Source of the DNA: Pedobacter lusitanus
Lineage (GTDB): Bacteria; Bacteroidota; Bacteroidia; Sphingobacteriales; Sphingobacteriaceae
Length of the DNA stretch: 64,000 nucleotides
Assembly (NCBI RefSeq): GCF_040026395.1
Contig: NZ_CP157278.1
Location: 3,224,001-3,288,000 of the forward strand
Direction: 5' to 3'
The position numbers and the translations under genes are program-made. The notes under the pieces were generated by a model. It was not told the DNA's origin. It was given only the letters and a program-made list of their open reading frames with translations, and made no database searches. Position 1 is the first letter of the stretch; the number at the start of each line of letters is the position of its first letter. This document shows, piece after piece, positions 37,691-56,011 of the stretch.

Positions 37691-38568
37691 TTGTTCTTTA
37701 TAAAAGGGCCAACAAATTTACCATTAGCGCCCACCTGCCTAGCGCCTATGATTGATTGACTCGAGATATTTAAGGGCACAGCTGTTTCCAATTCACCAGG
37801 AAAGGGACTAGAGCTACCTAATGCTTGATTCACTTTTACTCCATTAGCAGGCTCTCCTATTGTGTATACAAATCCTCCTTCTCCAGCAAATCCTCTAGAT
37901 ACACTTGGTGAAGAAGATGTAGAAATAAAACCGCTGTTAGAAGGATTATTTGCGGCATGATCTAATAAATTCATATTGTTACCTTTTGAAGAAAATCCAT
38001 TAGAAAACACTTCGTTTGGCGCACGACTATCCCCTCTAAACACAAAACCACCTGAAGACTCAGAAGTAGCTGCGCTAGCTCCCTTTAAAGCTCCAGCAGC
38101 CTTGCTAACAAGAGCACCTACTCCCATTGTTGCGGCCGTATTTATTACATTTGCACCAGCATCTCCTATTATATTCCCTGCCGTTTTAGCATCACCAGAC
38201 AGTACCGCCTTACCCAACGCATAATTTTGTTCCACTGCACCTGACATCCCAAGCGTAGCCGTATTTGCAGCAAATTTGGCCGCACCACCGAGTGTTATGC
38301 TTTTTAATGTAGTGATAGGATTAGTAGTTAAAACCTTACCTATCGCTTTATAATTATTAACAAAACCTTGCGCAACTCCCTTAAAGAAAAGACCACAACA
38401 CGCTTGGGTCTCCATTCCATCAGGATCAACAAATCGAATTGGGTTATCGTCGCCATAAACAAACGGACTCCATCTTCTTGACTTCTCAGCTAACGGGTCT
38501 ATACTAGTCCATCTCCCAATAACAGGATCATAGAACCTTGCCCCGTAATTGTACTCCCCTAACTCTTC
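37687..38568 (-). pseudogene. Displaced RHS tip 4: ADP-ribosyltransferase-type toxin, no start or promoter
   Basis: After a TAG at 38569 the frame reads [20 protein letters not shown], then [20 protein letters not shown] and a glycine/alanine-rich linker. The toxin shows the R-S-E triad of ADP-ribosyltransferases: [12 protein letters not shown] (Arg), [16 protein letters not shown] (STS) and [10 protein letters not shown] (ExE-like). Such tips modify host proteins, RNA or DNA with NAD+. The RHS side retains LQ-EEL codons close to those of the active RHS gene, so this copy was cut just upstream of the core. Confidence 0.78.
38543..38552. repeat. 10-bp att-like core (1 mismatch), tip 4
   Basis: CCGTAATTGT; one base differs from the core and changes YDYG to YNYG on the coding strand. 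Confidence 0.6.
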
Positions 38569-38578
38569 CTATTGCAAA

Positions 38579-38956
38579 TCACTTGGATTTCTTATAATTA
38601 TCTCTGTAATCAAGGATAATTTTACTTCCATTTTTTTTATAGATTTCCAACTTGAAAGAGTTTTCAATCTTTGATAATGAATCTCCCATTTCTATATAAG
38701 GTTCCCAATTTCTAAAGATTGGGAACCTTACTTTATTTGACACCGCATATTTGACATTATGATTCTCTTCATCAAAATACATACTATCAATTTTACCGTT
38801 AAAATGCTTCATTAGATTATCTTTTTGTATTATTTCTACTGTCCCCGGGCTAGAAATAATTGAGTGGAGAATAAAACCAACTAAAAACATTAACGGAACA
38901 GCAATAGCTACACCTATAATAATACGATCTCTTACTGAAATATTTTTTCCAATCAT
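38579..38956 (-). CDS. Membrane-anchored immunity protein of tip 3
   Basis: 125 residues with one N-terminal membrane helix ([20 protein letters not shown]) and an outward-facing beta-rich domain ([20 protein letters not shown], then [20 protein letters not shown]). Its start overlaps the tip 3 stop by 4 bp. It ends about 10 bp before the RHS fragment of tip 4. It probably protects against tip 3 in the periplasm or at the membrane. Confidence 0.6.
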
Positions 38957-39794
38957 CGCAATAATTTTGTTCTTGAATTACTATACATTGCCCCTCCACC
39001 CCAACCAGTACCAAATGAGAAACCAGTTTGATGAGTTTTATATCCCCCATCATTTGCGCCAAATCTGTTATAGTTCATTGCTTTTCCTCCTACTGTATTA
39101 GGATCTAAGCTTCCTCCATAACTTACACCAGCATCCATAAGTGGGGTTGAAACACCAACATTATAAGAAGCTCCTTTACCAACAAAATCTTGGTTATGAA
39201 ACTGTTGATTAGTAGCAGTCGGTATTGTTTGTCCAAAATCTAATTGCGCACCAATACCTATGCCTATATTACCCGAAAATGAGACATAAAAATCACTATT
39301 CCCTGTAGCGTCAGTAACTAAACCTGCACCTATTCCAAATCCTCCGATTGCAGCAAAGCCTGCCGAAACTCCCATATAGCTTCCTTCTGTTTGTCTAGGT
39401 GTGAAGGTAGATCCGAGTGAGTTTGAAAAACTTTCCTTAGAACCTGCTGCCAATGTCACCCCTCCTTTTGTAATAGAACCATCCTCATGCAGGGATACAG
39501 TTTCTAATGAGGTAGAACCATTGCTTACAGATGCTGTGGCCTCCTTACCTATATACTTCGCCCCTTCTCCTTGATATTTTTCTGCCGTTACGGCATCAGT
39601 AACTCTGTCATCCCAAACAAATTTATTTCCTTTTTCCACCCAATCAGTAGCTTCCATACCATCAGGATCAATAAACCTAATTGGATTATTCAAACCGTAA
39701 ACATATGGGGAGAAACGTCTACTTTTTTCAGAAAGAGGGTCTATTGTATTGAAACGACCGATAACCGGATCATAGAACCTTGCGCCGTAATCGT
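38953..39794 (-). pseudogene. Displaced RHS tip 3: glycine-rich toxin, no start or promoter
   Basis: Next to the core at 39785 the frame reads [20 protein letters not shown], then [20 protein letters not shown]. The tip is rich in Gly and hydrophobic strands ([20 protein letters not shown], then [18 protein letters not shown]), the look of a pore-former or beta-barrel-like domain; this is a guess from composition. It was the resident tip before the duplicated element inserted, because the element's outer boundary is fused to its first codons. Confidence 0.7.
39785..39794. repeat. 10-bp core, outer junction (attR-like)
   Basis: CCGTAATCGT between old tip 3 and the element end. Confidence 0.8.
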
Positions 39795-39822
39795 GTACCC
39801 TTATGCGACTTTTTTCGGGTTC

Positions 39823-39882
39823 GCCGGATTTGCCGGCTGCACTTTTTCAGTGCTATAAAGAACTTTCCTTTTCCGTAAAGTT
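39823..39882. promoter_or_regulatory. Three consecutive stem-loops at the element end
   Basis: GCCGG/CCGGC (39823-39837), GCACT/AGTGC (39839-39853) and AACTTT/AAAGTT (39861-39882). The stems are conserved and the loops differ in the diverged copy at 36684-36743. They lie 28 bp inside the core, a place suited to recombinase or accessory-protein binding, or to single-strand folding. Confidence 0.65.
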
Positions 39883-39959
39883 AGTGCTTTATTTGTGTTT
39901 ACTGGTTGGACTTGTTTGGCTTTTTTTTGTTGGAGATTCGACTTTGAAGGTGCGGAACT

Positions 39960-40732
39960 ATAAACGGTACTGCTTGTTCGTTAGTTCATCTGTTATAGCA
40001 AAGATAGCCCCGAAAGTAAAGCTGTAAAGGGCTTTCGCGGCATAAACGCTCGTAGCCTTTGCCCTCAAAAAGGCCATTTATTCCACGATCCCTTGACAGC
40101 TTCACTTTCTTAGGCTCGGGGTGGCTTAACAAATGAACTACCTGAACCCATGATGAAAGGGGCGCCATCTTGCTCCCTCCAGGGATAAAACGAGCTTTGG
40201 TAGCGGGGAGGACAAGAGCGGCTCTTTTGATCCCTGAGAGGTTGGGCGGGAGCACTGTCCCTGTTTCAGGGGGCATGAGATGTTCCCCCGACCAGTCTTG
40301 CACTGCCACCATCAATGAACAATACCTTGCTGCCGCAGGCCTTGCCGCTGACCGACTGGAAGGAGACGGCATATATCAACAAAGGCAAAGGCTGCTTTTC
40401 GCAGGCGTTTGCCTACACTGTAGGCAGTGGAAGCCGATAGCCCGGGTACACCTTTTTTCATGAAAACACTTTGGCTATGGGCTGGAACGCGAGCGGTGGC
40501 CGAGCGTAGGCCGAGCGGCTATTTAACATAATACCCATTATCAGCTCAGCTCTGGGAGTTAACCAAAGTCATGGAGCACTGCTGAGATTATAATGTGTAT
40601 TATGTTATTTTGCTTTGGGCTGGTTCTTCACCGGCAGAAGAGATGGCCAGCGGAAGGACAGCAAAAGACAGAGACAAGCGAGCCCCTTTAGCGAGCTGGC
40701 TGGATTTTGATGGACTGAGGGCGTGCGCAATT
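39960..40732. other. GC-rich non-coding block of element copy 1
   Basis: Much richer in GC than the flanks, with runs of short inverted repeats (for example GCCTAC act GTAGGC near 40412, and GCCGAGCG motifs near 40500). Open frames of 128 codons (minus, 39986-40372) and 97 codons (plus, 40170-40463) overlap each other, which shows lack of stops rather than coding. It could hold a structured RNA or further recombination sites. Confidence 0.5.
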
Positions 40733-41650
40733 TTATTTTAGCGGATGGTGTTTATTCAGAGCCTCTTTCAGGTCTTCCAGATTACTGGTCTGATACCATT
40801 CAGTACTGCTCACATATTTATGGCCTGCCATATATTGAACTGTCCGTAAGTCTTTTTCTTTCAACCATTCAGTGATTACACTTTGACGGAGCTGTACTGC
40901 ATTTTTATATTTTACGTTCAACCTACGTAAAGCCTGGTTCAGATGATATAAGCTGTTTTTGATGTTTTCACAACCATTCATACTGATGAACAACTGACTG
41001 ATTTGTTCAGCTGATTTCATTGTTTTAGGTTTTCTACCGGAACGTCCTGCCATTCTGTTAACCAGGATCTTAGAACGGGTAACATGGATATATTCATACA
41101 GTTCCATGATCTGAAAGGCTTCCAGCCTAAGCATTCTGCTATTGCTATGCTCATTTGCAGCGATGTATACCTTTCCTTCTTTTAGCTTGAGATGCTCTTC
41201 TTTCAGCTGATGCAGATCCTGAGTACTCAAACCCTGATAGATCAGCAAAGACAACATCACTTTATTACGCTGACTACGCTCATCTTTAACCTGATAACTT
41301 TCATATAAAGCATCCAGCTCGCCTTTTTCCAACAGACCACTGGGAACAGTTCTGGTACTGCCTTTCAACCTGATACCTGCTACCGGATTACTACTGACCC
41401 TGCCCTGTTTCTGTAACCAGCTAAAGTAATACCGGATAGCCAGCAGCATCCGGTTAACCAGTCCCACTCCTTTATTTTCCTGCTTCTGGTAAGCTGCATA
41501 ATCAAGGATTTCATTATAGCTCACCTGCTCCAGATTGAAGCCTTCCTCTGCAAGCCAGCCCAGAAAGTGACTCGTATATTTCCGGTGCTGGTAAACCGTA
41601 ACAGGTTTTAAGCCATGATGCTCCAGGTACTGCTCAAAGCTCATGTACAA
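40733..41650 (-). CDS. Tyrosine recombinase-fold protein B with incomplete active site (copy 1)
   Basis: 305 residues. The N-terminal SAM-like core-binding domain (FEQYLEHHGLKPVTVYQHRK, then FLGWLAEEG) and C-terminal catalytic fold can be aligned with recombinase A. Arg I is Ser142 (YQGLSTQDL against CGLRKSE) and the HxxR His is Val252 (AVQLRQS), while Arg255, His277 (MAGHKYV) and Tyr286 (TEWYQ) remain. It is probably not competent alone and may form a heteromer with A, in the way XerC and XerD share work. It overlaps recombinase A by 17 bp, so both are made together. Confidence 0.82.
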   Translation of the reverse strand: MYMSFEQYLEHHGLKPVTVYQHRKYTSHFLGWLAEEGFNLEQVSYNEILDYAAYQKQENKGVGLVNRMLLAIRYYFSWLQKQGRVSSNPVAGIRLKGSTRTVPSGLLEKGELDALYESYQVKDERSQRNKVMLSLLIYQGLSTQDLHQLKEEHLKLKEGKVYIAANEHSNSRMLRLEAFQIMELYEYIHVTRSKILVNRMAGRSGRKPKTMKSAEQISQLFISMNGCENIKNSLYHLNQALRRLNVKYKNAVQLRQSVITEWLKEKDLRTVQYMAGHKYVSSTEWYQTSNLEDLKEALNKHHPLK

Positions 41651-42509
41651 TATGGGTATAGATCTGCGTACTTTCCAAACTGCTGTGACCCAGGAACCGC
41701 TGGATCTGTTCCAACCTCATTCCTGCTGCAAGCAGATGAGTCGCTATACTATGACGAAGGGTATGGGGGCCGATGGCCTGATCAAGATCTGCCTTTTCTT
41801 TTAACCGTTCAATACGTTTAAAAGCCGTCTTTAACCGTCCCCCATGGATCGTTAACACCAGCGCAGATTCTTTATTCCCACTCAGCAGATAAGGCCGCCC
41901 ATAGCGCAGGTAATGCTCCAGATCTGTTTTATTGCTTCCTGTCAGCGGAACATAACGCGCTTTATAACCTTTACCTTTACGAACCAGCACCAGTTCTTTT
42001 TCCAGCAGTACATCTTCTGTATTCAGGCTCAGCCCTTCACTTTTTCTAAGACCACATCCATAATACAAAGCCAGTAGTGCACGGTCTCGCAGACCCAAAG
42101 GACTATCCGAGGTGGCAGCATAAAGTTTCCCCACTTCCTTTCTGCTCAGTATATTCTTGCCCATTACAGGCTTCTCTTTAAGCTGAACCTTGACCGTAAA
42201 GCTTTCCTGTCCGCTTTCAGCCAGATACCGCGCAAACTTACGGATCACCTGCAGGTGTTTACGCCGGTAGTTCAAACTCAGTAAACCTCTGCCGGTTTTA
42301 CCCGGTTTCTCACTCAGCTCAATCAGGTAATTGTGCAGATGACTTTCCTGGAGTTGTGACAGGCTAACACAAGCCTGTGATTCCAGATAGCTCAGGAACT
42401 CTCCCAGCAGCTTAGGCATATCCCTTTGACTGCTGACATCAAAGTTCAGTACCTTGAGCCACTGTTCAAAGCCTGTTTGCTGCCGGATATAAAGTGGATT
42501 TTCCATCAT
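41634..42509 (-). CDS. Tyrosine recombinase A (XerC/D-like integrase), complete active site (copy 1)
   Basis: 291 residues. The N-terminal SAM-like DNA-binding domain covers about 10-100 (FEQWLKVLNFDVSSQRDMPK). The catalytic residues are all visible: Arg154 (YGCGLRKSEGL), Lys in the RKGKGYKARYVP beta-hairpin (177-186), His249 and Arg252 (PHTLRHSIATHLL), His275 (FLGHSS) and Tyr284 (TQIYTHI). It is expected to cut and exchange strands at the 10-bp core. It lies between the ATPase gene and recombinase B in one minus-strand operon. Confidence 0.93.
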   Translation of the reverse strand: MMENPLYIRQQTGFEQWLKVLNFDVSSQRDMPKLLGEFLSYLESQACVSLSQLQESHLHNYLIELSEKPGKTGRGLLSLNYRRKHLQVIRKFARYLAESGQESFTVKVQLKEKPVMGKNILSRKEVGKLYAATSDSPLGLRDRALLALYYGCGLRKSEGLSLNTEDVLLEKELVLVRKGKGYKARYVPLTGSNKTDLEHYLRYGRPYLLSGNKESALVLTIHGGRLKTAFKRIERLKEKADLDQAIGPHTLRHSIATHLLAAGMRLEQIQRFLGHSSLESTQIYTHIVHEL

Positions 42510-42536
42510 GTATATTTTTTACTAACTGTACGTTTC

Positions 42537-44153
42537 TTAACCAGTCCGGGTTACTGCCCCTTTCTTACTGAGGCTCTGCACCTTGACTAACCCACTGCTC
42601 TTCTGGGATACTGATGGGTTACAGGATACTGAACGGATCTGAGAGAGGATACCCAACACCATGGCCTGACCACTCTCCTGCAACGTTTCCAGATCATTCC
42701 ATCGCTGCACCTTATACTCAAAGCCTTTATAGCGGTTTCCACGGGTGATCCGGATATAGCCCATCCGTTCCAGCTCATACAGATAACGACCAATACTACT
42801 GGGCGTAAGCCGGAAAGCTGAGCGGATCTCTTTACTATAAAAGCTATCTGTATCATTCCCTTTCAGGTAACTCTTCAAACGTTCAAAGAAGTTACGACAG
42901 GCATCATTCAGCTCATCACTCTTTTTCAGCAGCGTGGTTTCCAATAACCTGAAGGCGGTTTCTACATCTTCAATCGTACTCTCGATATACTGTTCTCCGG
43001 TATCCAGGTCTGTTTTCAACTCCCGCTGGTACTGGTGGTAATAGGTCACCGTCTCGGTAAACAGCAGCAATAACAGCATCGTCCGGCGGGGCTTGAACAC
43101 CTCTTCAGGTAGTTTCATGTAAACAGCAAAGGGATTTCTTACCGTAATAGGATTTAAGATACGCTGCACGTTCTTGATCAGTGCGCGGCTCTGCTGCTCG
43201 GCACCCTGATCAACCTGTCCGGCACTAAGCCGGCGCTGGTATTCCATGATCCGCTGATCCTGTTCTCCGCTCACATCCATATAGAGCAGAATACACCGGT
43301 TCGCGTTATCTTCATACAATTGCTCACGCGTGGTACAGCCACTCACGCAGACCGGACCTTCGACATTCAGCGTCACTGTTTTCAGGTTCCCCTTATTGTC
43401 TTTTAAAGTCACAGTCTTGGAGATTCTCCGTTTACTCTGCAATTCACGCAAAGGATAAAGCGCACTTTCTGCACCATCCAGGTCTTCGATCAGTAGCAGT
43501 TTATGTTTCAGCTCTTCCCGTCCAAAGTAATAAAAGGCATTACTGGAAAGCGTAGTAATTTCAAGCTTGTCTTCTTCGGGCATCAGCTCTGATACTTTCT
43601 CCTGAAGCCAGGTCTTTCCTGTTCCGCTGGCTCCCAGACACATCAGGTGCAAAGGTGTATTGCGCTTACGGGAAGTATAGCTCAGGTAAGCAATCAGACT
43701 ATTGGATTCCTCTCCAATCAGCCCGCTGGCAGCAATCGCCTCCCGCGTTCGCTCCAGCAGGTTTCCAGATTTCAGAAAAGCCAATGCTGCTTTACGTTCT
43801 GCTGCACTCAGTTCTCTTTTCTCCGCCTGCTTGGGCTTCATCGACTCTAGCCGCTCCCCCCGGTAATTTTCCAGTGCACTAGTCAGACCTTTCACCGCCA
43901 AACTCACCTCCACCGTACTCACTTCCAGTACTTCCGCAGATTTCTCAATCAGCTGCTCACTATGGATACTGTTATACAGATCCAGATGATGACGAAAGGC
44001 ATGATCCCGATTATCTATACGGATCAGCTTCAGCGTAACTTTCAGCCGCTCAAGACCGGTCAGCCGCACACCACCCAGTACTGTGATGTGCAGCTTCCCT
44101 TCGGTATACAGCAATAACTCAGGATTATCACTATGCAATTGTCCTTTACTCAT
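42537..44153 (-). CDS. Element-encoded P-loop ATPase with C-terminal winged helix (copy 1)
   Basis: 538 residues. Walker A is GASGTGKT (174-181) and Walker B LLLIEDLD (219-226); VSGCTTREQLYEDNANRCIL near 270-290 looks like sensor and arginine-finger positions of an AAA+ or MCM/helicase-like ATPase. The N-terminal 150 residues are helical and unassigned. FYSKEIRSAFRLTPSSIGRY with LYELERMGYIRITRGN (about 430-475) is a winged helix. It may load or regulate the recombinases, or drive replication of the excised circle; neither is shown by the sequence. It abuts the SymE-like gene by 1 bp. Confidence 0.75.
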   Translation of the reverse strand: MSKGQLHSDNPELLLYTEGKLHITVLGGVRLTGLERLKVTLKLIRIDNRDHAFRHHLDLYNSIHSEQLIEKSAEVLEVSTVEVSLAVKGLTSALENYRGERLESMKPKQAEKRELSAAERKAALAFLKSGNLLERTREAIAASGLIGEESNSLIAYLSYTSRKRNTPLHLMCLGASGTGKTWLQEKVSELMPEEDKLEITTLSSNAFYYFGREELKHKLLLIEDLDGAESALYPLRELQSKRRISKTVTLKDNKGNLKTVTLNVEGPVCVSGCTTREQLYEDNANRCILLYMDVSGEQDQRIMEYQRRLSAGQVDQGAEQQSRALIKNVQRILNPITVRNPFAVYMKLPEEVFKPRRTMLLLLLFTETVTYYHQYQRELKTDLDTGEQYIESTIEDVETAFRLLETTLLKKSDELNDACRNFFERLKSYLKGNDTDSFYSKEIRSAFRLTPSSIGRYLYELERMGYIRITRGNRYKGFEYKVQRWNDLETLQESGQAMVLGILSQIRSVSCNPSVSQKSSGLVKVQSLSKKGAVTRTG

Positions 44154-44341
44154 TACCGTTTCACTTTAATGAGCAGCTCCCCTTCAACAATAGCGATATC
44201 AACCATATCGCCCGCATGAAAGCCGCACTGATCCAGCCAGACTCCTGAGATTCTCAGTTCAGGAACCTGTCTGGACTGGTGATAGGCCAGTGGTACATAT
44301 TTAGTTTGTAACTTAATTGATCTGTGTTGCTGATTTTCCAT
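44153..44341 (-). CDS. SymE-like small protein (copy 1)
   Basis: 62 residues. VPELRISGVWLDQCGFHAGD followed by MVDIAIVEGELLI fits the SymE/MazE-AbrB-like swapped-hairpin fold, with the conserved P.iRl.G.WL...GF..Gd pattern. SymE of E. coli is an SOS-induced toxin; in an element, such a protein could equally be a DNA-binding regulator. It is the first gene of the ATPase-recombinase operon and divergent from the XRE gene. Confidence 0.65.
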   Translation of the reverse strand: MENQQHRSIKLQTKYVPLAYHQSRQVPELRISGVWLDQCGFHAGDMVDIAIVEGELLIKVKR

Positions 44342-44375
44342 CTTTATTAAAGTTTTTATATGTAACTATCAGATA

Positions 44376-44383
44376 CAAATATA
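44376..44383 (-). promoter_or_regulatory. -7 element of the symE-ATPase-recombinase operon (copy 1)
   Basis: CAAATATA on the plus strand is TATATTTG on the minus strand, matching TAnnTTTG, 35 bp before the SymE-like start. Confidence 0.6.
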
Positions 44384-44441
44384 CCCTATTATTTACTTTA
44401 CACCAAAAACTATTAGATTTTTTTATCCCTTTTATTTACGC

Positions 44442-44449
44442 TAAATTTG
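44442..44449 (+). promoter_or_regulatory. -7 element of the XRE regulator gene (copy 1)
   Basis: TAAATTTG matches TAnnTTTG, 41 bp before the XRE ATG. The 149-bp divergent region between the two promoter elements is the obvious place for an operator bound by the XRE protein. Confidence 0.6.
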
Positions 44450-44490
44450 ACTTATCAGGCAATAATGAACAAAAAAGTGTCTTTTAAGAG

Positions 44491-44826
44491 ATGAATACAG
44501 GCAAGATTATATCAAATTTAAGAGATCGCAAAAACTGGTCACAGAGTGACCTGGCTGCCAAAAGTGGCATTTCAAGGGTCATGATCGGTAAATACGAAAG
44601 AGAAGAAGCTATTCCTTCTATAGAAGTAGCCAAAAAGATTGCCCAGGCTTTCGAAGTCACTTTGGATTATATCGGCGGCGAAGGCACCAGCGCCGCTTTT
44701 GATAAAAAGACAGTAAAAAGGATACAGGAGATAGAAGACCTGCCAGAAAACGACAGAACTCACTTACTGGTGATTATTGACGCATTTCTTAGAGATGCTA
44801 ATGCCAGAAAAGCTTACGGACAATAA
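44491..44826 (+). CDS. XRE-family regulator of the RHS-tip element (copy 1)
   Basis: 111 residues. The N-terminal helix-turn-helix covers about 5-60 (ISNLRDRKNWSQSDLAAKSG, ISRVMIGKYEREEAI, then VAKKIAQAFEVTLDYI), a lambda-repressor-like Cro/C1 domain. A short helical C-terminus follows (KTVKRIQEIEDLPENDRTHL). It is divergent from the SymE/ATPase/recombinase operon and convergent with the immunity gene. By analogy to other mobile elements it probably represses the recombination operon. Decayed 3' ends of the same gene type occur at 28011, 28846 and 32780. Confidence 0.9.
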   Translation: MNTGKIISNLRDRKNWSQSDLAAKSGISRVMIGKYEREEAIPSIEVAKKIAQAFEVTLDYIGGEGTSAAFDKKTVKRIQEIEDLPENDRTHLLVIIDAFLRDANARKAYGQ

Positions 44827-44835
44827 ACAATAAAA

Positions 44836-44852
44836 CCCAGCTTATAGCTGGG
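44836..44852 (+). terminator. Hairpin after the XRE gene (copy 1)
   Basis: CCCAGC ttata GCTGGG followed by a weak T-rich stretch, 10 bp after the stop; it may also serve the convergent immunity transcript. Confidence 0.6.
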
Positions 44853-44907
44853 CTCCTATATACTTTAGAGTAGATCAAACAGACCACTAATACTATAATT
44901 CATCTCT

Positions 44908-45279
44908 CTACATAAACTCTATATGACTCCCATAAGTCTTATACTTTATGCGTCTTTTATATTCTTGATTGTCTGGCTCAAAAAAACGAATTTCTATTGC
45001 GTCAAAATTCACTTCACCCTCTTTAATCGTCACATCTATTACAACTGCTCCAATTTTATATTGCCCATTTTCAACTCCTCTTTTCATATTCTCTTCCAAA
45101 AGGGATATTACTTCCAAAGAAGTAGGATTGTCATTATCCAAATAAACCCCTACAGGTTTGACATTTTCATTTTTATCAATACAAGTCCCAAAAGGATAAA
45201 ATTCGCCAGCATCCAACAAAAACATCTGTACCTGCTCCTGTATAATCAATGTCAATTTTTGAATATATTGTTCTTTCAT
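44908..45279 (-). CDS. Immunity protein of the PD-(D/E)XK tip (copy 1)
   Basis: 123 residues, soluble, acidic (IIQEQVQMFLLDAGEFYPFG, then AVVIDVTIKEGEVNFDAIEI). The ATG overlaps the toxin-tip stop by 4 bp. No known immunity family recognised. Identical to the protein at 51081-51452. In copy 1 it stands behind a start-less tip and would need read-through or its own promoter to be expressed. Confidence 0.65.
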   Translation of the reverse strand: MKEQYIQKLTLIIQEQVQMFLLDAGEFYPFGTCIDKNENVKPVGVYLDNDNPTSLEVISLLEENMKRGVENGQYKIGAVVIDVTIKEGEVNFDAIEIRFFEPDNQEYKRRIKYKTYGSHIEFM

Positions 45280-45967
45280 AGCATCAAATTTGGGTCTAAT
45301 GGTTTAGGCTTGTTGCCTTGAGGCACCAATACTGGACTAACTACTTTTACATTATCAACTTTTAAAGTTGGCGAAATTTGATAGGTCTTTATAATAAAAG
45401 AGGATTTTTTCAAAGGCTCAGATAATCTTGCACCTTTATTTATGATCAACTCAGGACTATAACCATTATCATTAGAATATTTTTCTTGCATCCTTAATTG
45501 TTTGGTAAACGACTGGTTTTTTACGTCTTTTATTTCTACTGTAGATTCACCTTCATTTTTAAATGCATCAGGAATAGTCTTCCCCTCTTGTCCTGTTTTA
45601 GGATCAGTCTCTTTTATCGGCTTGTAATTCTTCTCCAATCCATTTTTAGACAATTGCTCCGCTTCTGTCGCATTACCTCTTCTAAAACTTTCTAATGTTT
45701 TTCCACTAAACTCACCGCCCGCTTTTGTAATATTTTCTGCAGAATATTTCGCGCCTGCTTCAGCCAAAGGGGCAAGTTTAGGAACCATACTGGTACTCTC
45801 AAAGAAGAAGGTAAATGGCAATCCCTCTAACCCATCTAAATCAATGTTTTTAATAGGGTCATTAGAACCATACTGATAACTAGTCATCCAAGGGAAATGT
45901 TCAGCAACCGGATCTATTGCTGTAAAACGCCCTATTACCGGGTCATAGAACCTTGCCCCGTAATCGT
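45276..45967 (-). pseudogene. RHS tip 2: start-less duplicate of the active PD-(D/E)XK toxin tip
   Basis: From the core leftward the frame reads [20 protein letters not shown] and continues to the same stop as the active RHS protein; it is identical to the last 227 codons of 51449-54739. Because copy 2 of the element separates it from the RHS body, it has no start or promoter. It would become the active tip again if copy 2 were excised. Confidence 0.9.
45958..45967. repeat. 10-bp core at the junction of the two element copies (attP-like)
   Basis: CCGTAATCGT with tip sequence on its left and element end on its right. This is the junction expected in an excised circle. Confidence 0.8.
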
Positions 45968-45995
45968 GTACCCTTATGCGACTTTTTTCGGGTTC

Positions 45996-46055
45996 GCCGG
46001 ATTTGCCGGCTGCACTTTTTCAGTGCTATAAAGAACTTTCCTTTTCCGTAAAGTT
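45996..46055. promoter_or_regulatory. Three stem-loops at the element end (copy 2)
   Basis: Same three hairpins as 39823-39882. Confidence 0.65.
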
Positions 46056-46132
46056 AGTGCTTTATTTGTGTTTACTGGTTGGACTTGTTTGGCTTTTTTT
46101 TGTTGGAGATTCGACTTTGAAGGTGCGGAACT

Positions 46133-46905
46133 ATAAACGGTACTGCTTGTTCGTTAGTTCATCTGTTATAGCAAAGATAGCCCCGAAAGTAAAGCTGTAA
46201 AGGGCTTTCGCGGCATAAACGCTCGTAGCCTTTGCCCTCAAAAAGGCCATTTATTCCACGATCCCTTGACAGCTTCACTTTCTTAGGCTCGGGGTGGCTT
46301 AACAAATGAACTACCTGAACCCATGATGAAAGGGGCGCCATCTTGCTCCCTCCAGGGATAAAACGAGCTTTGGTAGCGGGGAGGACAAGAGCGGCTCTTT
46401 TGATCCCTGAGAGGTTGGGCGGGAGCACTGTCCCTGTTTCAGGGGGCATGAGATGTTCCCCCGACCAGTCTTGCACTGCCACCATCAATGAACAATACCT
46501 TGCTGCCGCAGGCCTTGCCGCTGACCGACTGGAAGGAGACGGCATATATCAACAAAGGCAAAGGCTGCTTTTCGCAGGCGTTTGCCTACACTGTAGGCAG
46601 TGGAAGCCGATAGCCCGGGTACACCTTTTTTCATGAAAACACTTTGGCTATGGGCTGGAACGCGAGCGGTGGCCGAGCGTAGGCCGAGCGGCTATTTAAC
46701 ATAATACCCATTATCAGCTCAGCTCTGGGAGTTAACCAAAGTCATGGAGCACTGCTGAGATTATAATGTGTATTATGTTATTTTGCTTTGGGCTGGTTCT
46801 TCACCGGCAGAAGAGATGGCCAGCGGAAGGACAGCAAAAGACAGAGACAAGCGAGCCCCTTTAGCGAGCTGGCTGGATTTTGATGGACTGAGGGCGTGCG
46901 CAATT
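46133..46905. other. GC-rich non-coding block of element copy 2
   Basis: Same sequence as 39960-40732; overlapping open frames on both strands are not supported as genes. Confidence 0.5.
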
Positions 46906-47823
46906 TTATTTTAGCGGATGGTGTTTATTCAGAGCCTCTTTCAGGTCTTCCAGATTACTGGTCTGATACCATTCAGTACTGCTCACATATTTATGGCCTG
47001 CCATATATTGAACTGTCCGTAAGTCTTTTTCTTTCAACCATTCAGTGATTACACTTTGACGGAGCTGTACTGCATTTTTATATTTTACGTTCAACCTACG
47101 TAAAGCCTGGTTCAGATGATATAAGCTGTTTTTGATGTTTTCACAACCATTCATACTGATGAACAACTGACTGATTTGTTCAGCTGATTTCATTGTTTTA
47201 GGTTTTCTACCGGAACGTCCTGCCATTCTGTTAACCAGGATCTTAGAACGGGTAACATGGATATATTCATACAGTTCCATGATCTGAAAGGCTTCCAGCC
47301 TAAGCATTCTGCTATTGCTATGCTCATTTGCAGCGATGTATACCTTTCCTTCTTTTAGCTTGAGATGCTCTTCTTTCAGCTGATGCAGATCCTGAGTACT
47401 CAAACCCTGATAGATCAGCAAAGACAACATCACTTTATTACGCTGACTACGCTCATCTTTAACCTGATAACTTTCATATAAAGCATCCAGCTCGCCTTTT
47501 TCCAACAGACCACTGGGAACAGTTCTGGTACTGCCTTTCAACCTGATACCTGCTACCGGATTACTACTGACCCTGCCCTGTTTCTGTAACCAGCTAAAGT
47601 AATACCGGATAGCCAGCAGCATCCGGTTAACCAGTCCCACTCCTTTATTTTCCTGCTTCTGGTAAGCTGCATAATCAAGGATTTCATTATAGCTCACCTG
47701 CTCCAGATTGAAGCCTTCCTCTGCAAGCCAGCCCAGAAAGTGACTCGTATATTTCCGGTGCTGGTAAACCGTAACAGGTTTTAAGCCATGATGCTCCAGG
47801 TACTGCTCAAAGCTCATGTACAA
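46906..47823 (-). CDS. Tyrosine recombinase-fold protein B with incomplete active site (copy 2)
   Basis: Identical in sequence to 40733-41650, including Ser142 and Val252 in place of the catalytic Arg and His. Two identical copies with the same substitutions argue that these changes came before the tandem duplication. Confidence 0.82.
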   Translation of the reverse strand: MYMSFEQYLEHHGLKPVTVYQHRKYTSHFLGWLAEEGFNLEQVSYNEILDYAAYQKQENKGVGLVNRMLLAIRYYFSWLQKQGRVSSNPVAGIRLKGSTRTVPSGLLEKGELDALYESYQVKDERSQRNKVMLSLLIYQGLSTQDLHQLKEEHLKLKEGKVYIAANEHSNSRMLRLEAFQIMELYEYIHVTRSKILVNRMAGRSGRKPKTMKSAEQISQLFISMNGCENIKNSLYHLNQALRRLNVKYKNAVQLRQSVITEWLKEKDLRTVQYMAGHKYVSSTEWYQTSNLEDLKEALNKHHPLK

Positions 47824-48682
47824 TATGGGTATAGATCTGCGTACTTTCCAAACTGCTGTGACCCAGGAACCGCTGGATCTGTTCCAACCTCATTCCTGCT
47901 GCAAGCAGATGAGTCGCTATACTATGACGAAGGGTATGGGGGCCGATGGCCTGATCAAGATCTGCCTTTTCTTTTAACCGTTCAATACGTTTAAAAGCCG
48001 TCTTTAACCGTCCCCCATGGATCGTTAACACCAGCGCAGATTCTTTATTCCCACTCAGCAGATAAGGCCGCCCATAGCGCAGGTAATGCTCCAGATCTGT
48101 TTTATTGCTTCCTGTCAGCGGAACATAACGCGCTTTATAACCTTTACCTTTACGAACCAGCACCAGTTCTTTTTCCAGCAGTACATCTTCTGTATTCAGG
48201 CTCAGCCCTTCACTTTTTCTAAGACCACATCCATAATACAAAGCCAGTAGTGCACGGTCTCGCAGACCCAAAGGACTATCCGAGGTGGCAGCATAAAGTT
48301 TCCCCACTTCCTTTCTGCTCAGTATATTCTTGCCCATTACAGGCTTCTCTTTAAGCTGAACCTTGACCGTAAAGCTTTCCTGTCCGCTTTCAGCCAGATA
48401 CCGCGCAAACTTACGGATCACCTGCAGGTGTTTACGCCGGTAGTTCAAACTCAGTAAACCTCTGCCGGTTTTACCCGGTTTCTCACTCAGCTCAATCAGG
48501 TAATTGTGCAGATGACTTTCCTGGAGTTGTGACAGGCTAACACAAGCCTGTGATTCCAGATAGCTCAGGAACTCTCCCAGCAGCTTAGGCATATCCCTTT
48601 GACTGCTGACATCAAAGTTCAGTACCTTGAGCCACTGTTCAAAGCCTGTTTGCTGCCGGATATAAAGTGGATTTTCCATCAT
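47807..48682 (-). CDS. Tyrosine recombinase A (XerC/D-like integrase) (copy 2)
   Basis: Identical to 41634-42509 with Arg154, His249, Arg252, His275 and Tyr284. Both copies of the operon appear functional, so the window holds two doses of the recombinase. Confidence 0.93.
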   Translation of the reverse strand: MMENPLYIRQQTGFEQWLKVLNFDVSSQRDMPKLLGEFLSYLESQACVSLSQLQESHLHNYLIELSEKPGKTGRGLLSLNYRRKHLQVIRKFARYLAESGQESFTVKVQLKEKPVMGKNILSRKEVGKLYAATSDSPLGLRDRALLALYYGCGLRKSEGLSLNTEDVLLEKELVLVRKGKGYKARYVPLTGSNKTDLEHYLRYGRPYLLSGNKESALVLTIHGGRLKTAFKRIERLKEKADLDQAIGPHTLRHSIATHLLAAGMRLEQIQRFLGHSSLESTQIYTHIVHEL

Positions 48683-48709
48683 GTATATTTTTTACTAACT
48701 GTACGTTTC

Positions 48710-50326
48710 TTAACCAGTCCGGGTTACTGCCCCTTTCTTACTGAGGCTCTGCACCTTGACTAACCCACTGCTCTTCTGGGATACTGATGGGTTACAGGAT
48801 ACTGAACGGATCTGAGAGAGGATACCCAACACCATGGCCTGACCACTCTCCTGCAACGTTTCCAGATCATTCCATCGCTGCACCTTATACTCAAAGCCTT
48901 TATAGCGGTTTCCACGGGTGATCCGGATATAGCCCATCCGTTCCAGCTCATACAGATAACGACCAATACTACTGGGCGTAAGCCGGAAAGCTGAGCGGAT
49001 CTCTTTACTATAAAAGCTATCTGTATCATTCCCTTTCAGGTAACTCTTCAAACGTTCAAAGAAGTTACGACAGGCATCATTCAGCTCATCACTCTTTTTC
49101 AGCAGCGTGGTTTCCAATAACCTGAAGGCGGTTTCTACATCTTCAATCGTACTCTCGATATACTGTTCTCCGGTATCCAGGTCTGTTTTCAACTCCCGCT
49201 GGTACTGGTGGTAATAGGTCACCGTCTCGGTAAACAGCAGCAATAACAGCATCGTCCGGCGGGGCTTGAACACCTCTTCAGGTAGTTTCATGTAAACAGC
49301 AAAGGGATTTCTTACCGTAATAGGATTTAAGATACGCTGCACGTTCTTGATCAGTGCGCGGCTCTGCTGCTCGGCACCCTGATCAACCTGTCCGGCACTA
49401 AGCCGGCGCTGGTATTCCATGATCCGCTGATCCTGTTCTCCGCTCACATCCATATAGAGCAGAATACACCGGTTCGCGTTATCTTCATACAATTGCTCAC
49501 GCGTGGTACAGCCACTCACGCAGACCGGACCTTCGACATTCAGCGTCACTGTTTTCAGGTTCCCCTTATTGTCTTTTAAAGTCACAGTCTTGGAGATTCT
49601 CCGTTTACTCTGCAATTCACGCAAAGGATAAAGCGCACTTTCTGCACCATCCAGGTCTTCGATCAGTAGCAGTTTATGTTTCAGCTCTTCCCGTCCAAAG
49701 TAATAAAAGGCATTACTGGAAAGCGTAGTAATTTCAAGCTTGTCTTCTTCGGGCATCAGCTCTGATACTTTCTCCTGAAGCCAGGTCTTTCCTGTTCCGC
49801 TGGCTCCCAGACACATCAGGTGCAAAGGTGTATTGCGCTTACGGGAAGTATAGCTCAGGTAAGCAATCAGACTATTGGATTCCTCTCCAATCAGCCCGCT
49901 GGCAGCAATCGCCTCCCGCGTTCGCTCCAGCAGGTTTCCAGATTTCAGAAAAGCCAATGCTGCTTTACGTTCTGCTGCACTCAGTTCTCTTTTCTCCGCC
50001 TGCTTGGGCTTCATCGACTCTAGCCGCTCCCCCCGGTAATTTTCCAGTGCACTAGTCAGACCTTTCACCGCCAAACTCACCTCCACCGTACTCACTTCCA
50101 GTACTTCCGCAGATTTCTCAATCAGCTGCTCACTATGGATACTGTTATACAGATCCAGATGATGACGAAAGGCATGATCCCGATTATCTATACGGATCAG
50201 CTTCAGCGTAACTTTCAGCCGCTCAAGACCGGTCAGCCGCACACCACCCAGTACTGTGATGTGCAGCTTCCCTTCGGTATACAGCAATAACTCAGGATTA
50301 TCACTATGCAATTGTCCTTTACTCAT
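48710..50326 (-). CDS. Element-encoded P-loop ATPase with winged helix (copy 2)
   Basis: Identical to 42537-44153; Walker A GASGTGKT and Walker B LLLIEDLD are retained. Confidence 0.75.
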   Translation of the reverse strand: MSKGQLHSDNPELLLYTEGKLHITVLGGVRLTGLERLKVTLKLIRIDNRDHAFRHHLDLYNSIHSEQLIEKSAEVLEVSTVEVSLAVKGLTSALENYRGERLESMKPKQAEKRELSAAERKAALAFLKSGNLLERTREAIAASGLIGEESNSLIAYLSYTSRKRNTPLHLMCLGASGTGKTWLQEKVSELMPEEDKLEITTLSSNAFYYFGREELKHKLLLIEDLDGAESALYPLRELQSKRRISKTVTLKDNKGNLKTVTLNVEGPVCVSGCTTREQLYEDNANRCILLYMDVSGEQDQRIMEYQRRLSAGQVDQGAEQQSRALIKNVQRILNPITVRNPFAVYMKLPEEVFKPRRTMLLLLLFTETVTYYHQYQRELKTDLDTGEQYIESTIEDVETAFRLLETTLLKKSDELNDACRNFFERLKSYLKGNDTDSFYSKEIRSAFRLTPSSIGRYLYELERMGYIRITRGNRYKGFEYKVQRWNDLETLQESGQAMVLGILSQIRSVSCNPSVSQKSSGLVKVQSLSKKGAVTRTG

Positions 50327-50514
50327 TACCGTTTCACTTTAATGAGCAGCTCCCCTTCAACAATAGCGATATCAACCATATCGCCCGCATGAAAGCCGCA
50401 CTGATCCAGCCAGACTCCTGAGATTCTCAGTTCAGGAACCTGTCTGGACTGGTGATAGGCCAGTGGTACATATTTAGTTTGTAACTTAATTGATCTGTGT
50501 TGCTGATTTTCCAT
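50326..50514 (-). CDS. SymE-like small protein (copy 2)
   Basis: Identical to 44153-44341; first gene of the second ATPase-recombinase operon. Confidence 0.65.
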   Translation of the reverse strand: MENQQHRSIKLQTKYVPLAYHQSRQVPELRISGVWLDQCGFHAGDMVDIAIVEGELLIKVKR

Positions 50515-50548
50515 CTTTATTAAAGTTTTTATATGTAACTATCAGATA

Positions 50549-50556
50549 CAAATATA
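50549..50556 (-). promoter_or_regulatory. -7 element of the symE-ATPase-recombinase operon (copy 2)
   Basis: CAAATATA (TATATTTG on the minus strand), as at 44376. Confidence 0.6.
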
Positions 50557-50614
50557 CCCTATTATTTACTTTACACCAAAAACTATTAGATTTTTTTATC
50601 CCTTTTATTTACGC

Positions 50615-50622
50615 TAAATTTG
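50615..50622 (+). promoter_or_regulatory. -7 element of the XRE regulator gene (copy 2)
   Basis: TAAATTTG, as at 44442. Confidence 0.6.
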
Positions 50623-50663
50623 ACTTATCAGGCAATAATGAACAAAAAAGTGTCTTTTAAGAG

Positions 50664-50999
50664 ATGAATACAGGCAAGATTATATCAAATTTAAGAGATC
50701 GCAAAAACTGGTCACAGAGTGACCTGGCTGCCAAAAGTGGCATTTCAAGGGTCATGATCGGTAAATACGAAAGAGAAGAAGCTATTCCTTCTATAGAAGT
50801 AGCCAAAAAGATTGCCCAGGCTTTCGAAGTCACTTTGGATTATATCGGCGGCGAAGGCACCAGCGCCGCTTTTGATAAAAAGACAGTAAAAAGGATACAG
50901 GAGATAGAAGACCTGCCAGAAAACGACAGAACTCACTTACTGGTGATTATTGACGCATTTCTTAGAGATGCTAATGCCAGAAAAGCTTACGGACAATAA
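50664..50999 (+). CDS. XRE-family regulator of the RHS-tip element (copy 2)
   Basis: Identical to 44491-44826. Here the gene converges on the immunity gene of the expressed toxin, so transcription from the RHS gene could interfere with it. Confidence 0.9.
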   Translation: MNTGKIISNLRDRKNWSQSDLAAKSGISRVMIGKYEREEAIPSIEVAKKIAQAFEVTLDYIGGEGTSAAFDKKTVKRIQEIEDLPENDRTHLLVIIDAFLRDANARKAYGQ

Positions 51000-51008
51000 A
51001 CAATAAAA

Positions 51009-51025
51009 CCCAGCTTATAGCTGGG
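51009..51025 (+). terminator. Hairpin after the XRE gene (copy 2)
   Basis: CCCAGC ttata GCTGGG, as at 44836. Confidence 0.6.
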
Positions 51026-51080
51026 CTCCTATATACTTTAGAGTAGATCAAACAGACCACTAATACTATAATTCATCTCT

Positions 51081-51452
51081 CTACATAAACTCTATATGAC
51101 TCCCATAAGTCTTATACTTTATGCGTCTTTTATATTCTTGATTGTCTGGCTCAAAAAAACGAATTTCTATTGCGTCAAAATTCACTTCACCCTCTTTAAT
51201 CGTCACATCTATTACAACTGCTCCAATTTTATATTGCCCATTTTCAACTCCTCTTTTCATATTCTCTTCCAAAAGGGATATTACTTCCAAAGAAGTAGGA
51301 TTGTCATTATCCAAATAAACCCCTACAGGTTTGACATTTTCATTTTTATCAATACAAGTCCCAAAAGGATAAAATTCGCCAGCATCCAACAAAAACATCT
51401 GTACCTGCTCCTGTATAATCAATGTCAATTTTTGAATATATTGTTCTTTCAT
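51081..51452 (-). CDS. Immunity protein of the active RHS toxin (copy 2)
   Basis: Identical to 44908-45279. It overlaps the stop of the full-length RHS gene by 4 bp, so it is translated from the same mRNA as the toxin. It is expected to neutralise the PD-(D/E)XK tip in the cytoplasm; no membrane segment is present. Confidence 0.72.
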   Translation of the reverse strand: MKEQYIQKLTLIIQEQVQMFLLDAGEFYPFGTCIDKNENVKPVGVYLDNDNPTSLEVISLLEENMKRGVENGQYKIGAVVIDVTIKEGEVNFDAIEIRFFEPDNQEYKRRIKYKTYGSHIEFM

Positions 51453-54400
51453 AGCATCAAATTTGGGTCTAATGGTTTAGGCTTGTTGCCTTGAGGCACC
51501 AATACTGGACTAACTACTTTTACATTATCAACTTTTAAAGTTGGCGAAATTTGATAGGTCTTTATAATAAAAGAGGATTTTTTCAAAGGCTCAGATAATC
51601 TTGCACCTTTATTTATGATCAACTCAGGACTATAACCATTATCATTAGAATATTTTTCTTGCATCCTTAATTGTTTGGTAAACGACTGGTTTTTTACGTC
51701 TTTTATTTCTACTGTAGATTCACCTTCATTTTTAAATGCATCAGGAATAGTCTTCCCCTCTTGTCCTGTTTTAGGATCAGTCTCTTTTATCGGCTTGTAA
51801 TTCTTCTCCAATCCATTTTTAGACAATTGCTCCGCTTCTGTCGCATTACCTCTTCTAAAACTTTCTAATGTTTTTCCACTAAACTCACCGCCCGCTTTTG
51901 TAATATTTTCTGCAGAATATTTCGCGCCTGCTTCAGCCAAAGGGGCAAGTTTAGGAACCATACTGGTACTCTCAAAGAAGAAGGTAAATGGCAATCCCTC
52001 TAACCCATCTAAATCAATGTTTTTAATAGGGTCATTAGAACCATACTGATAACTAGTCATCCAAGGGAAATGTTCAGCAACCGGATCTATTGCTGTAAAA
52101 CGCCCTATTACCGGGTCATAGAACCTTGCCCCGTAATCGTACTCCTCCAACTCTTCCTGTAACTCTTTCTTATTATAAAGATATTTATTAGTTCCTGCGC
52201 TTACAACTTTCCTTAGTCCAAATGCATAATAATCATCACTCTGTATCTGTTGTATCAAACCCGTTACAGGATGCTTGTTAAAACTATAACGCACATTACC
52301 CAAATGATCACTCAGGTTATATTCATAACTGTAAGTTCCACCATTATTTCTCGCTAATCCTTCCTCAGTAGCAATGAAATCAATACTTCCATCAGTCTTG
52401 TGCTGAATGCCACCGATATAATCCGTAACCTCCGATCCACTTGTTTTTCTCAGTTTATTTCCAGTCGCATCATAAGTATAACTCAAAGTCTTATTACCCG
52501 TAACTTTCTCCGGCAAATTCAGGTAATTATAAGTCAGCGTTATTCCCTTCCCGCTATCAGTGATTAAGTTTCCATTGCTATCGTAACTATAAGTACTATT
52601 GGTAGCCCCTTCTATTTTGGTCAGCTGATTCCCGGTATACCCACTATAGTTATTGATCGCTTGACCTTCCCGGTTCAGCATCTTGATATTTCCCATCACA
52701 TCATAAATGATGTTCTCTCCAAGACCTGGTGATACAGCTCCAGTCAACCTGTTTAGTTTATCATAACTGTATTTGAACGTATTATCAAATTTACCTTCTC
52801 CTCTACCCCAAACCTGACCAGAAATATTACCATTCCATTGAGGCACATCACCCTCAGTATATTTCAGCTGCAGATTGAACTCTTTGCCTGTAGCCTTGTT
52901 CAGCCAACCTCTTTCATTATAAGCATAATCTGTATGTTGTAGATAGTTCGATCCACTATCCGTACTATGCAACTGTTTCTTCAGCAGCTGCCCGGTTTCA
53001 GTATAATCCAGCTGACTCAGCACCACTTCTCCTTTGTTATTGATATTCTCCAATGTTGCAATCTTACGCCCCATATGGTCGTAGAAATAACGATTGGCAA
53101 TCTCTGTAGTCGTACTGCCAGTCGTATGACTACGTGTACTCGCTGTCAGCTCTCCCGCAAAATTGTACGTATTATCAATAATATCCTTTCCACCCAAATG
53201 GTTCTCACTTTTACTCTGAATCACCCGACCTTCATCATCATAATAATGAACTGAAAGTAACATATTCGCTGTACCCAAAGTAGTCACTTTAGTCCCGGTT
53301 AATAACGATTTAACCCGGTCACCCTTCATCTGGCTTCCTGATGGCTCACCAAAAGTATTCTCCGGGAAACTATAATCATCATAATAATTGATCACATGAT
53401 AAGAACTTATCGAAGAAACCTGTGGAAAAGAAAGATTATCATAACCTATACCACCAGCAACTCTTTTCTCCCAAAGTACAGTCTGTGCATTGACAACTCC
53501 TTGTAAAGTAGTTCTATCATTCTCTCCGCTATATATACCCGAACTCACTACCCGCCCAAAAGCATCATATTTGGTAAACAACCACTGACCTGCTCCCTGA
53601 TTCGCATCCCGGGTCAAAATCACCTGATCCAATGTATTATACACCATAGATTCCTGACCTTTGCCCGGTATTTTCTTTTCTACCAGTCTCTTCCTGCCAT
53701 CATAATGATACCCGTAAATAAACTGCTTATAGACATCATCACTCTCAGAAAAAGTGCTGATACTTCCAACTCCCGGAGGCAATACATAGCGCAAATTGCC
53801 CAGATCATCATACACATAATATGTAGAAAGACCTTGCGCGTCACTTTCCCACACACGTTTTAAAACCACTCTGCCTTCAAAATCTTTATACTCATCTACT
53901 GTCCCTGCTTTTAAATCCGCAGCAACCCAGTTCTCATCTTTTGTCGTCGTTTTATATAATGTCCCTGCAGCATAATTAGAGCTAGCCGAGGCTCCAGTTG
54001 CATTCACCACCCAAAGTTTTACCTCTGCAGCATTAGTTCCATACTCAATTTTCTGAGTATGCCCGGTACTATTGCCAGAGACTGGTTGCCATGCAGCACC
54101 TGGTGCACCCTGTTCTAAAACACGGTTCAATGGCGAAGATTCAAAAACAGTTACCCCATAAGCATTAGCTGTTGCTGCGATACCCGCCGGAGGCGTTGTA
54201 TAGAAAGCCCCTTGTTCAGTTACCCCGCTACCTCGATACCCACCCCCGTTGCTCCCAATCGCATAAGGCTGATACTTTACCGCCTCACGTCCAAAAGCAT
54301 CATAAACAACAGGCTGCACTACATCAGCAAAACTGGGACTACCCTGTACCGTTACTGTTTGCAGCGGGCGTCCTAACCCATCAAAATATTGTATACTCTG

Positions 54401-54739: not shown

Positions 54740-54989
54740 GAGGCATTAATTCTTAAAATGGCAATTATTCTTTCTGATGTTACGTTCATCGTGATTTTGC
54801 AACTATTCAAATTCGTCTTATATGGCTTAATATTGAGGATCGCACAAGTCGCAATTCCAATAGCTAATCTACTGGTATACAAAAACAACACCTGTTGTTA
54901 AAGTGATATTTATAAAATGATAATTTTCATATTTATTATAAACGCCACTCCATATCAGGCGTAAATATATTACTAAAATATTCGCATTT
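54740..54989. other. Intergenic region upstream of the RHS gene
   Basis: AT-rich. I found no exact TAnnTTTG on the minus strand. One weak inverted repeat (GCC actccatatca GGC near 54948-54961) is present. No gene supported. Confidence 0.4.
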
Positions 54990-55572: not shown

Positions 55573-55593
55573 TTCTTATTCAATGATAAGAAA

Positions 55594-55983: not shown

Positions 55984-56011
55984 CTCAAATCCTGTTTTTT
56001 TGTCTTCCTGA

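Follow-up and report, generated by a model that had tools for sequence, protein, structure and literature searches.

The window analysed here is a stretch of 64,000 nucleotides from the Pedobacter lusitanus genome, a single 6.05-Mb contig (NZ_CP157278.1), and contains an RHS gene whose 3' end, the toxin tip, is part of a repeated unit with its own recombinase genes. The comparison of this unit with its relatives points, with a probability of about 0.88, to an integrative element that mobilises itself, is site-specific and carries as cargo a replacement for the 3' end of the very gene it targets. Insertion of such an element seems to give the target gene a new function rather than break it. This would explain how bacteria re-arm these proteins, with toxin end and likely immunity gene replaced in one step. 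The original prediction, made from the window alone, had proposed in-frame re-arming of this kind; the comparison supports it, and the finding is wider than was stated there.

The unit is bounded by a direct repeat of 10 bp, CCGTAATCGT, which was predicted to form the YDYG codons of the RHS gene, and the unit does start at these codons. This core occurs at five sites in the window (31195, 36646, 39785, 45958 and 52131), every one on the + strand, against a mean of 0.07 sites expected by chance; five sites were reached in none of 100 shuffles. The predicted outer boundaries hold, but it had been missed that 39785-52130 consists of two tandem units of 6,173 bp each (39785-45957 and 45958-52130) with 0 differences between them. 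The self-match with a period of 6173 spans 39785-45967 and ends there, and the sequence common to the window junctions is 10 bp. Short direct repeats flank both ends of the unit, as in integrative elements of tyrosine recombinases. With two copies intervening, the former tip (38953-39784) has been shifted by 12.3 kb instead of the 6 kb originally proposed.

Read on the minus strand, the RHS body (54739-52141) is followed by the core, the tip, a putative immunity gene, an XRE regulator on the opposite strand, SymE, an ATPase, tyrosine recombinases A and B, 0.94 kb of non-coding DNA, the core, the second unit and the older tip. All components that had been predicted (tip, putative immunity gene, regulator, ATPase and two proteins with a Phage_integrase domain) are present. 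The RHS open reading frame (ORF) 54739-51449, with 1,096 codons, stays in frame from the body through the core and on into the tip, and the expected fusion of body and tip is borne out. The features are as follows.

52141-54739, minus strand: RHS gene body (delivery part), within ORF 51449-54739; matches to DUF6443, RHS_repeat and Rhs_assc_core.
52131-52140, minus strand: core, similar to an attachment (att) site, at the junction of body and unit 1, YDYG codons; repeat search.
45958-52130, minus strand: mobile unit copy 1, 6173 bp, its tip fused to the RHS body; identical to copy 2, boundaries agree with relatives.
51449-52130, minus strand: toxin tip, copy 1; Tox-REase-7 (PF15649, 1.3e-11).
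51081-51452, minus strand: putative immunity gene, copy 1, 123 amino acids (aa); function suggested by its position.
50664-50999, plus strand: XRE/RstR-like regulator, copy 1; HTH_3, and RstR family NF041951 above cut-off.
50329-50514, minus strand: SymE-like gene, copy 1 (copy of 44156-44341); PF08845.
48710-50326, minus strand: ATPase, copy 1, 538 aa; precomputed PF27228 on listed relatives.
47807-48682, minus strand: tyrosine recombinase A, copy 1, 291 aa; Phage_integrase domain, complete catalytic set.
46906-47823, minus strand: tyrosine recombinase B, copy 1, 305 aa; box II His absent, box I Arg aligned to Ser.
45968-46905, minus strand: non-coding recombinase-side end, copy 1, reaching the core; kept in relatives.
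45958-45967, minus strand: core between copy 1 and copy 2; repeat search and self-comparison.
39785-45957, minus strand: mobile unit copy 2; 0/6173 differences from copy 1.
45276-45957, minus strand: displaced tip of copy 2; copy of the copy 1 tip.
44908-45279, minus strand: putative immunity gene, copy 2; ORF and position.
44491-44826, plus strand: XRE/RstR-like regulator, copy 2; domain match.
44156-44341, minus strand: SymE-like gene, copy 2; domain match.
42537-44153, minus strand: ATPase, copy 2; ORF and family of relatives.
41634-42509, minus strand: tyrosine recombinase A, copy 2; domain and catalytic residues.
40733-41650, minus strand: tyrosine recombinase B, copy 2; domain and residue alignment.
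39795-40732, minus strand: non-coding recombinase-side end, copy 2; end comparison.
39785-39794, minus strand: core between copy 2 and the older displaced tip; repeat search.
38953-39784, minus strand: older displaced RHS tip, beginning at the core in the YDYG register; ORF and core position.

The putative immunity protein had no Pfam or NCBIfam match, the ATPase had no Pfam match above cut-off in the scan of the window proteins, and an Rfam scan of 36000-56000 gave 0 RNA matches at E <= 0.1.

The search for relatives in genus and family used one genome per species. At E <= 1e-60, 9 of 145 genus genomes have recombinase A, and at E <= 1e-40 at least 40 of 399 family genomes have the ATPase. 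In the phylum, the ATPase is present in at least 12 of 395 genomes. Each count includes the window's own genome. The family and phylum counts are lower bounds, with at most three candidates per genome scored. Boundaries were compared in 33 regions (12 from the genus, 20 from the family and the window), in which a script found 40 recombinase-A matches, 29 of them with an upstream core; identical copies are counted separately among these 29 units, and the rows are not all independent. The comparison shows the same boundaries and frame as in the window. In 18 of the 29, the unit is fused in frame to an ORF with at least 660 preceding codons. A downstream core exists for 28, 24 of them located by the script and four (L102, L103, L089 and L095) on closer reading; the only unit without one, L038, reaches the contig end. 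At most 20 open codons precede 22 of the 24 downstream cores, which corresponds to an element end and no body. The 11 matches for which the script gave no upstream core comprise six edge cases (L031, L032, L035, L040, L042 and L093 at 2307, the last being a second view of a unit already counted in L094), two core forms that the script overlooked (L086 and L097), another recombinase with 23 % identity (L089 at 296), a 39 % relative (L104), and a second recombinase pair without ATPase (L090 at 14638). In L037 and in the L093 unit at 9778, the core closest upstream may be that of a neighbouring tip.

Identical units at different sites were found in three relatives. Genome G284, a single contig, carries a unit of about 5.83 kb at three loci with 0 mismatches. 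Two of these copies stand in frame behind different RHS bodies, with core-exact junctions and different displaced tips after them. The third lies in a palindrome outside RHS that has GATTACGGTGC in its arms and little beyond the core in common with the other sites. In our reading, these three insertions would narrow the exchange to GATTA, since the letters retained on each side place it within this part of TAy-GAT-TAy-GG. G354 has one copy in RHS and one at a similar palindrome, with 0 mismatches over 6.3 kb, and the two copies in G332, which agree fully over 5.7 kb, are fused to a body in one case and follow another tip in the other. A separate observation in G332 concerns a tip start in L092 (5968 and 13016) with the same first residues and 269 codons both times, once fused to a body and once behind a unit with another tip.

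Insertions outside RHS deserve attention because the original prediction named a recombinase block beside unrelated genes as evidence that would speak against it. Such blocks do occur, in that the L086, L089 and L095 units lie at palindromes with cores near 7767, 7786 and 7912 (element orientation), but their GATTAyGG core is unchanged. As they share this core, they are read as secondary sites. G434 has a palindrome insertion as well. With one mismatch allowed, the palindrome GATTAYGGYGCAAAGCRCCRTAATC was found in 7 of 399 family genomes, once in each, with 0 control matches in the rows. An element end adjoins it in five of the seven (four with recombinase B in the fetched piece, one by its end sequence at a contig edge), one of the other two has no element end, and one is ambiguous. 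DUF4184 genes adjoin the L086 and L089 insertions; L089 also has a relaxase gene nearby, and L086 and L095 have toprim and MobC/NikA-like genes in their vicinity. That the palindrome is a parking site serving transfer between cells is a guess.

The tips are decoupled from the recombinase backbone. After the 45 core residues had been stripped, the 29 tips (identical copies included) fell into 19 clusters without detectable similarity, with links drawn at E < 1e-5 over more than 60 aa. The 25 distinct recombinase A proteins are 54-99 % identical (mean 68 %). The same recombinase set beside different tips was what the original prediction had led one to expect. Pairs with 97-98 % identical recombinase A and different tip clusters include L033/L034, the G284 unit/L098 and L099/L103. 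In the last pair, backbone identity is 96.9 % over 4.8 kb, with no alignment between about unit positions 60 and 1353, the tip and the following gene. L095 and L098 have a common tip cluster and recombinase A proteins that are only 78 % identical. Tips also vary on near-identical bodies, as had been predicted: in L017, one of two further RHS loci of the window's genome, the body has 95.8 % DNA identity to that of the window and enters another tip at the core, with only 69 matching bases between the window tip and L017. Names for the toxins of other tips were sought in Pfam, with 0 matches in ten tips scanned, one of them with shortened coordinates.

The same mechanism could have another beneficiary. 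The unit may be a selfish element for which the RHS gene is a safe harbour, the tip merely keeps the gene open and the immunity gene acts as an addiction module. Its anatomy is that of a target-restoring integrative element, and a toxin with its immunity gene would presumably stabilise the element as well. Against this account stands the restored end, which varies over 19 clusters among 29 tips, and the near-identical L099 and L103 backbones differ in tip and following gene. Near-identical backbones with a different tip and next gene suggest selection on tip novelty. A purely selfish element is regarded as possible but somewhat doubtful.

Tandem exact repeats joined at cores are not limited to the window and were also found in L033 and L149 and, within the fetched stretch, in L073 and L074. 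The absence of any difference between the two window copies would fit an assembly error or a chance unequal crossover unrelated to mobility. The recurrence of core-joined tandems and the same boundaries in single-copy relatives argue against this, and it is considered unlikely. A unit that is a plain duplication is ruled out by these single-copy relatives. A tandem is also compatible with the integrative element, as each insertion leaves a core on both sides and units can stack. Contig C10 of G016 was considered as a free circle and rejected; its ends do not overlap, and it is read as an unresolved array unit.

A natural empty site was found in Escherichia coli, where the primase-XerC part of a related element occurs in 55 of 5426 complete genomes. 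In strain CREC-2 (L083), the RHS locus that holds it is flanked by ansP and nhoA. At least two strains outside the 55 (two strains among 40 matches listed of 117) have the tip that follows the last L083 unit, and in them it starts exactly at the core and is annotated in an RHS gene; in A34, one of these strains, the RHS body is split into several ORFs. Positions 1-7074 of the empty site L119 correspond to 3254-10326 of L083 (99.6 %) and positions 7001-14838 to 26878-34715 (99.8 %), which leaves an L083 insert of about 16.6 kb between two 14-bp cores. Here, the body continues into a different tip accompanied by an Imm8 gene; downstream, the old tip and its neighbour WP_023155668.1 are retained. 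Two circular records are of interest as well. A Lonsdalea populi record of 11,289 bp contains two tip-immunity-SymE-HTH (helix-turn-helix) modules, a primase and XerC, without an annotated RHS body, and has an E. coli-like element end and ATGACCCGATAGGG before each tip; to judge by this sequence, it looks like the predicted circle. A Shigella flexneri record of 8,758 bp contains one unit, with cores behind the element end and behind a body fragment.

Several observations weigh against a self-mobilising element. Both the empty site and the circles come from relatives that have a full primase and a single annotated XerC and whose ATPase is about 31 % identical over 69 % of the query. The empty site proposed as a check in the original prediction was not found for the unit of the window itself, and the displaced tip has no second full-length copy in the 145 genus genomes. 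The circular records are possibly assembly products, since tandem arrays occur in E. coli. The L083 insert is composite, with two primase-XerC units, four tip starts and a first tip without its own recombinase, and it contains a 306-bp identical fragment of core and body, which indicates that homologous recombination or decay acted there too. Two of the 24 downstream cores follow body fragments (148 codons in L096 and 47 in L100), and tips farther down in L088 carry 248 codons of body. Finally, recombinase B looks impaired.

The body fragments fit homologous recombination, and both routes may operate. If ordinary RecA-dependent recombination between RHS cores alone moved the tips, the recombinase genes would be passengers, and core fragments of variable length are indeed described in passages of Jackson et al. 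(PMC2935791). Long homologous core at the junctions is missing from the G284, G354 and G332 units and from 22 of the 24 downstream cores; something like it is seen in two of the 24 and in some tips of L088 and L083. Given also the identical G284 unit behind two different bodies and the three units at palindromes outside RHS, this explanation is very improbable.

The recombinases differ in their residues. Recombinase A has R155, K178, K180, H249 and R252 in 25 of 25 proteins and H275 and Y284 in 24 of 25, translations with a stop being excluded; we take these to be the catalytic positions. Recombinase B retains R255, H277 and Y286, but in all 23 proteins the box II His is absent and the box I Arg is aligned to Ser or Thr; 13 of them have an Arg one residue past this column. 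It is probably impaired, and these residues speak against two equally active recombinases. The alignment suggests A as the catalyst and B as its partner.

The ATPase family gave 6,132 matches among 7,999 scored candidates, with PF27228 on the 120 listed, and 0 relatives of solved structure were found by sequence. None of the ATPase and the two recombinases matched a listed anti-phage protein in PADLOC, where the XRE regulator matched general HTH models. A phage origin was also dismissed, the match being one virus (two records) with 22.6 % identity over 49 % of the query. All 16 recombinase-side ends compared have GTTCTTT 68-69 bp ahead of the core and TA(A/T)CTTT(A/G) just upstream of this motif (in the window within 39795-39900 and 45968-46073), and 10 of the 16 have a GCAC...GTGC hairpin. 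TA(A/T)CTTT(A/G) resembles a Bacteroidetes promoter box. The end motifs could be an arm site, or a promoter whose transcription crosses the core. Over the final 941 bp of the window unit, two G016 copies reach 89 % identity; identity is much lower in other species, in which this end is often shorter.

In the proposed mechanism, recombinase A, probably with the impaired B as a partner, would recombine a circular form of the unit with the resident RHS core within GATTA. This would join the resident body in frame to the new tip and push the old one downstream intact, together with its immunity gene. Cell-to-cell transfer might occur by riding on mobilizable elements with a mimic of the site. Catalysis by A, excision, the immunity function, transfer between cells and a role of the ATPase in processing or replicating the circle are inferred.

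More distant relatives show that the element is not confined to one genus, as is evident from family, phylum, plasmid and E. coli matches. A plasmid survey yielded 27 records with an ATPase match, eleven of which were examined. A similar gene order was found in RHS genes of Aureispira and Aureibacter, at the TpsA2 gene of Pseudomonas aeruginosa, and beside filamentous-haemagglutinin, invasin-domain and FG-GAP genes of three other proteobacteria. It consists of the 3' end of a large gene, one or more small genes, an HTH gene on the opposite strand, a CHC2/toprim protein (lacking annotation in the Providencia record) and one or more XerC-type recombinases. DnaG-type zinc and toprim domains are present in the three longer ATPase relatives scanned, and the window ATPase is without them. 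Two Leptospira plasmid relatives have no annotated RHS gene in the stretch examined, and one further record has no annotation there. The two units in L149 are an exact tandem repeat, and two adjacent units in L150 differ by one base over about 5.9 kb, with the stretch from core to regulator outside the repeat.

The repeats start at motifs that depend on the lineage: YYPFG in L149 and L150, YGFNGKEKD in L074, ECSNHLGN in L073, GAKGAGQ in L080, and GACCCGATAGGGCT, read as DPIGL, in E. coli. The RHS motifs among them are presumably widely conserved ones. The core motifs differ between lineages, and the principle looks the same. Going further, these elements may form a cross-phylum class of self-mobile toxin cassettes, similar to integrons without a platform, in which each cassette has its own recombinase and a lineage-specific core in a codon motif (YDYG, YYPFG, YGFNGKEKD, ECSNHLGN or DPIGL in RHS genes, GAKGAGQ in a TpsA-type gene). 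One-step re-arming, an archive of tips and hitch-hiking via palindromes would be further properties; a primase-helicase would replicate the circle in some lineages, and recombinase-free derivatives may re-use the archive in trans. We lean slightly towards this broader interpretation.

The element resembles several known systems. Prophages in icd are examples of integrative elements that rebuild the 3' end of the gene they target. Like such elements, the unit has a tyrosine recombinase, direct repeats in coding sequence and in-frame restoration; unlike them, it restores the gene with an unrelated toxin domain that comes with a putative immunity gene of its own. The Rci shufflon at pilV also exchanges C-terminal ends in frame with a tyrosine recombinase, but does so by inversion of a resident set and not with a mobile unit. 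As in integron cassettes, the newest unit takes the expressed first position and older ones accumulate downstream in tandem. In contrast to integrons, each unit contains its recombinases and no fixed platform exists; the core is part of codons, and proteins become fused. Integron gene cassettes are cited as a precedent in passages of Jackson et al. 2009 (PMC2935791), according to which an incoming rhs tip displaces the old one, dissociated tips form arrays and a circular intermediate is proposed. Compared with that account, the old tip downstream and the new tip in frame are also seen here, while each unit has a dedicated recombinase set and junctions at a short core. A dedicated element would explain the joint in-frame arrival of tip and immunity gene, the ordered arrays of displaced tips and tips common to unrelated bodies.

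In the rAID clusters of Bacteroidales, a tyrosine recombinase accompanies arrayed interbacterial immunity genes; these are orphans without tips, and no fusion to a delivery body is described in the available passages of PMC12247911. A SymE gene mid-way in a Proteus contact-dependent inhibition (CDI) cluster, mentioned in part of PMC11278526, could in our view be a relic of such a unit. No recombinase element at the rhs core appears in the passages of PMC2935791, PMC13183296, PMC12247911, PMC10210955 and PMC11278526 that were available, nor was a description found in the partly accessible open-access literature, which mostly leaves out subscription papers and preprints and beyond which one may exist. 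With a core, a recombinase and a natural empty site in E. coli defined, the question of re-arming is directly testable.

Orphan tips with the same starting motif continue downstream in the window to about 30.4 kb and include the following.

36645-36808, minus strand: element-end remnant and core (36646), left by an earlier unit; 90 % identity with unit positions 6021-6185.
35985-36645, minus strand: displaced tip behind the remnant; ORF.
33687-34393, minus strand: displaced tip with variant core CCGTAATCAT; ORF.
30384-31204, minus strand: displaced tip with core at 31195; ORF and repeat search.

A start codon was sought in the element-end leads of three displaced window tips (at 45967, 39794 and 36655), with 0 ATG, GTG or TTG between the last stop and the core. 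As their leads have no start codon, these tips look silent unless they are started internally. In the two further RHS loci of this genome, L016 and L017, similar arrays are present, and the motif-bearing displaced tips are preceded by a unit end in 3 of 3 and 3 of 4 cases, respectively. These loci also hold four internal-deletion derivatives (L016 10037-12135 and L017 7519-9990) that follow a tip and have no ATPase or recombinases. In them, part of the XRE/regulator region meets the element end, directly in three and with about 40 bp between in one, and the endpoints are all different. They are possibly non-autonomous cassettes.

Among other genes of the orphan tip region, the tip at 37687-38415 matches Scabin-like and related ADP-ribosyltransferase families, and a DUF1016/YhcG nuclease gene lies at 31669-32703. 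Two genes that look alike by eye (31236-31541, 101 aa, and 34425-34712, 95 aa) each directly precede an orphan tip in which a short EEYDYG piece of the body remains.

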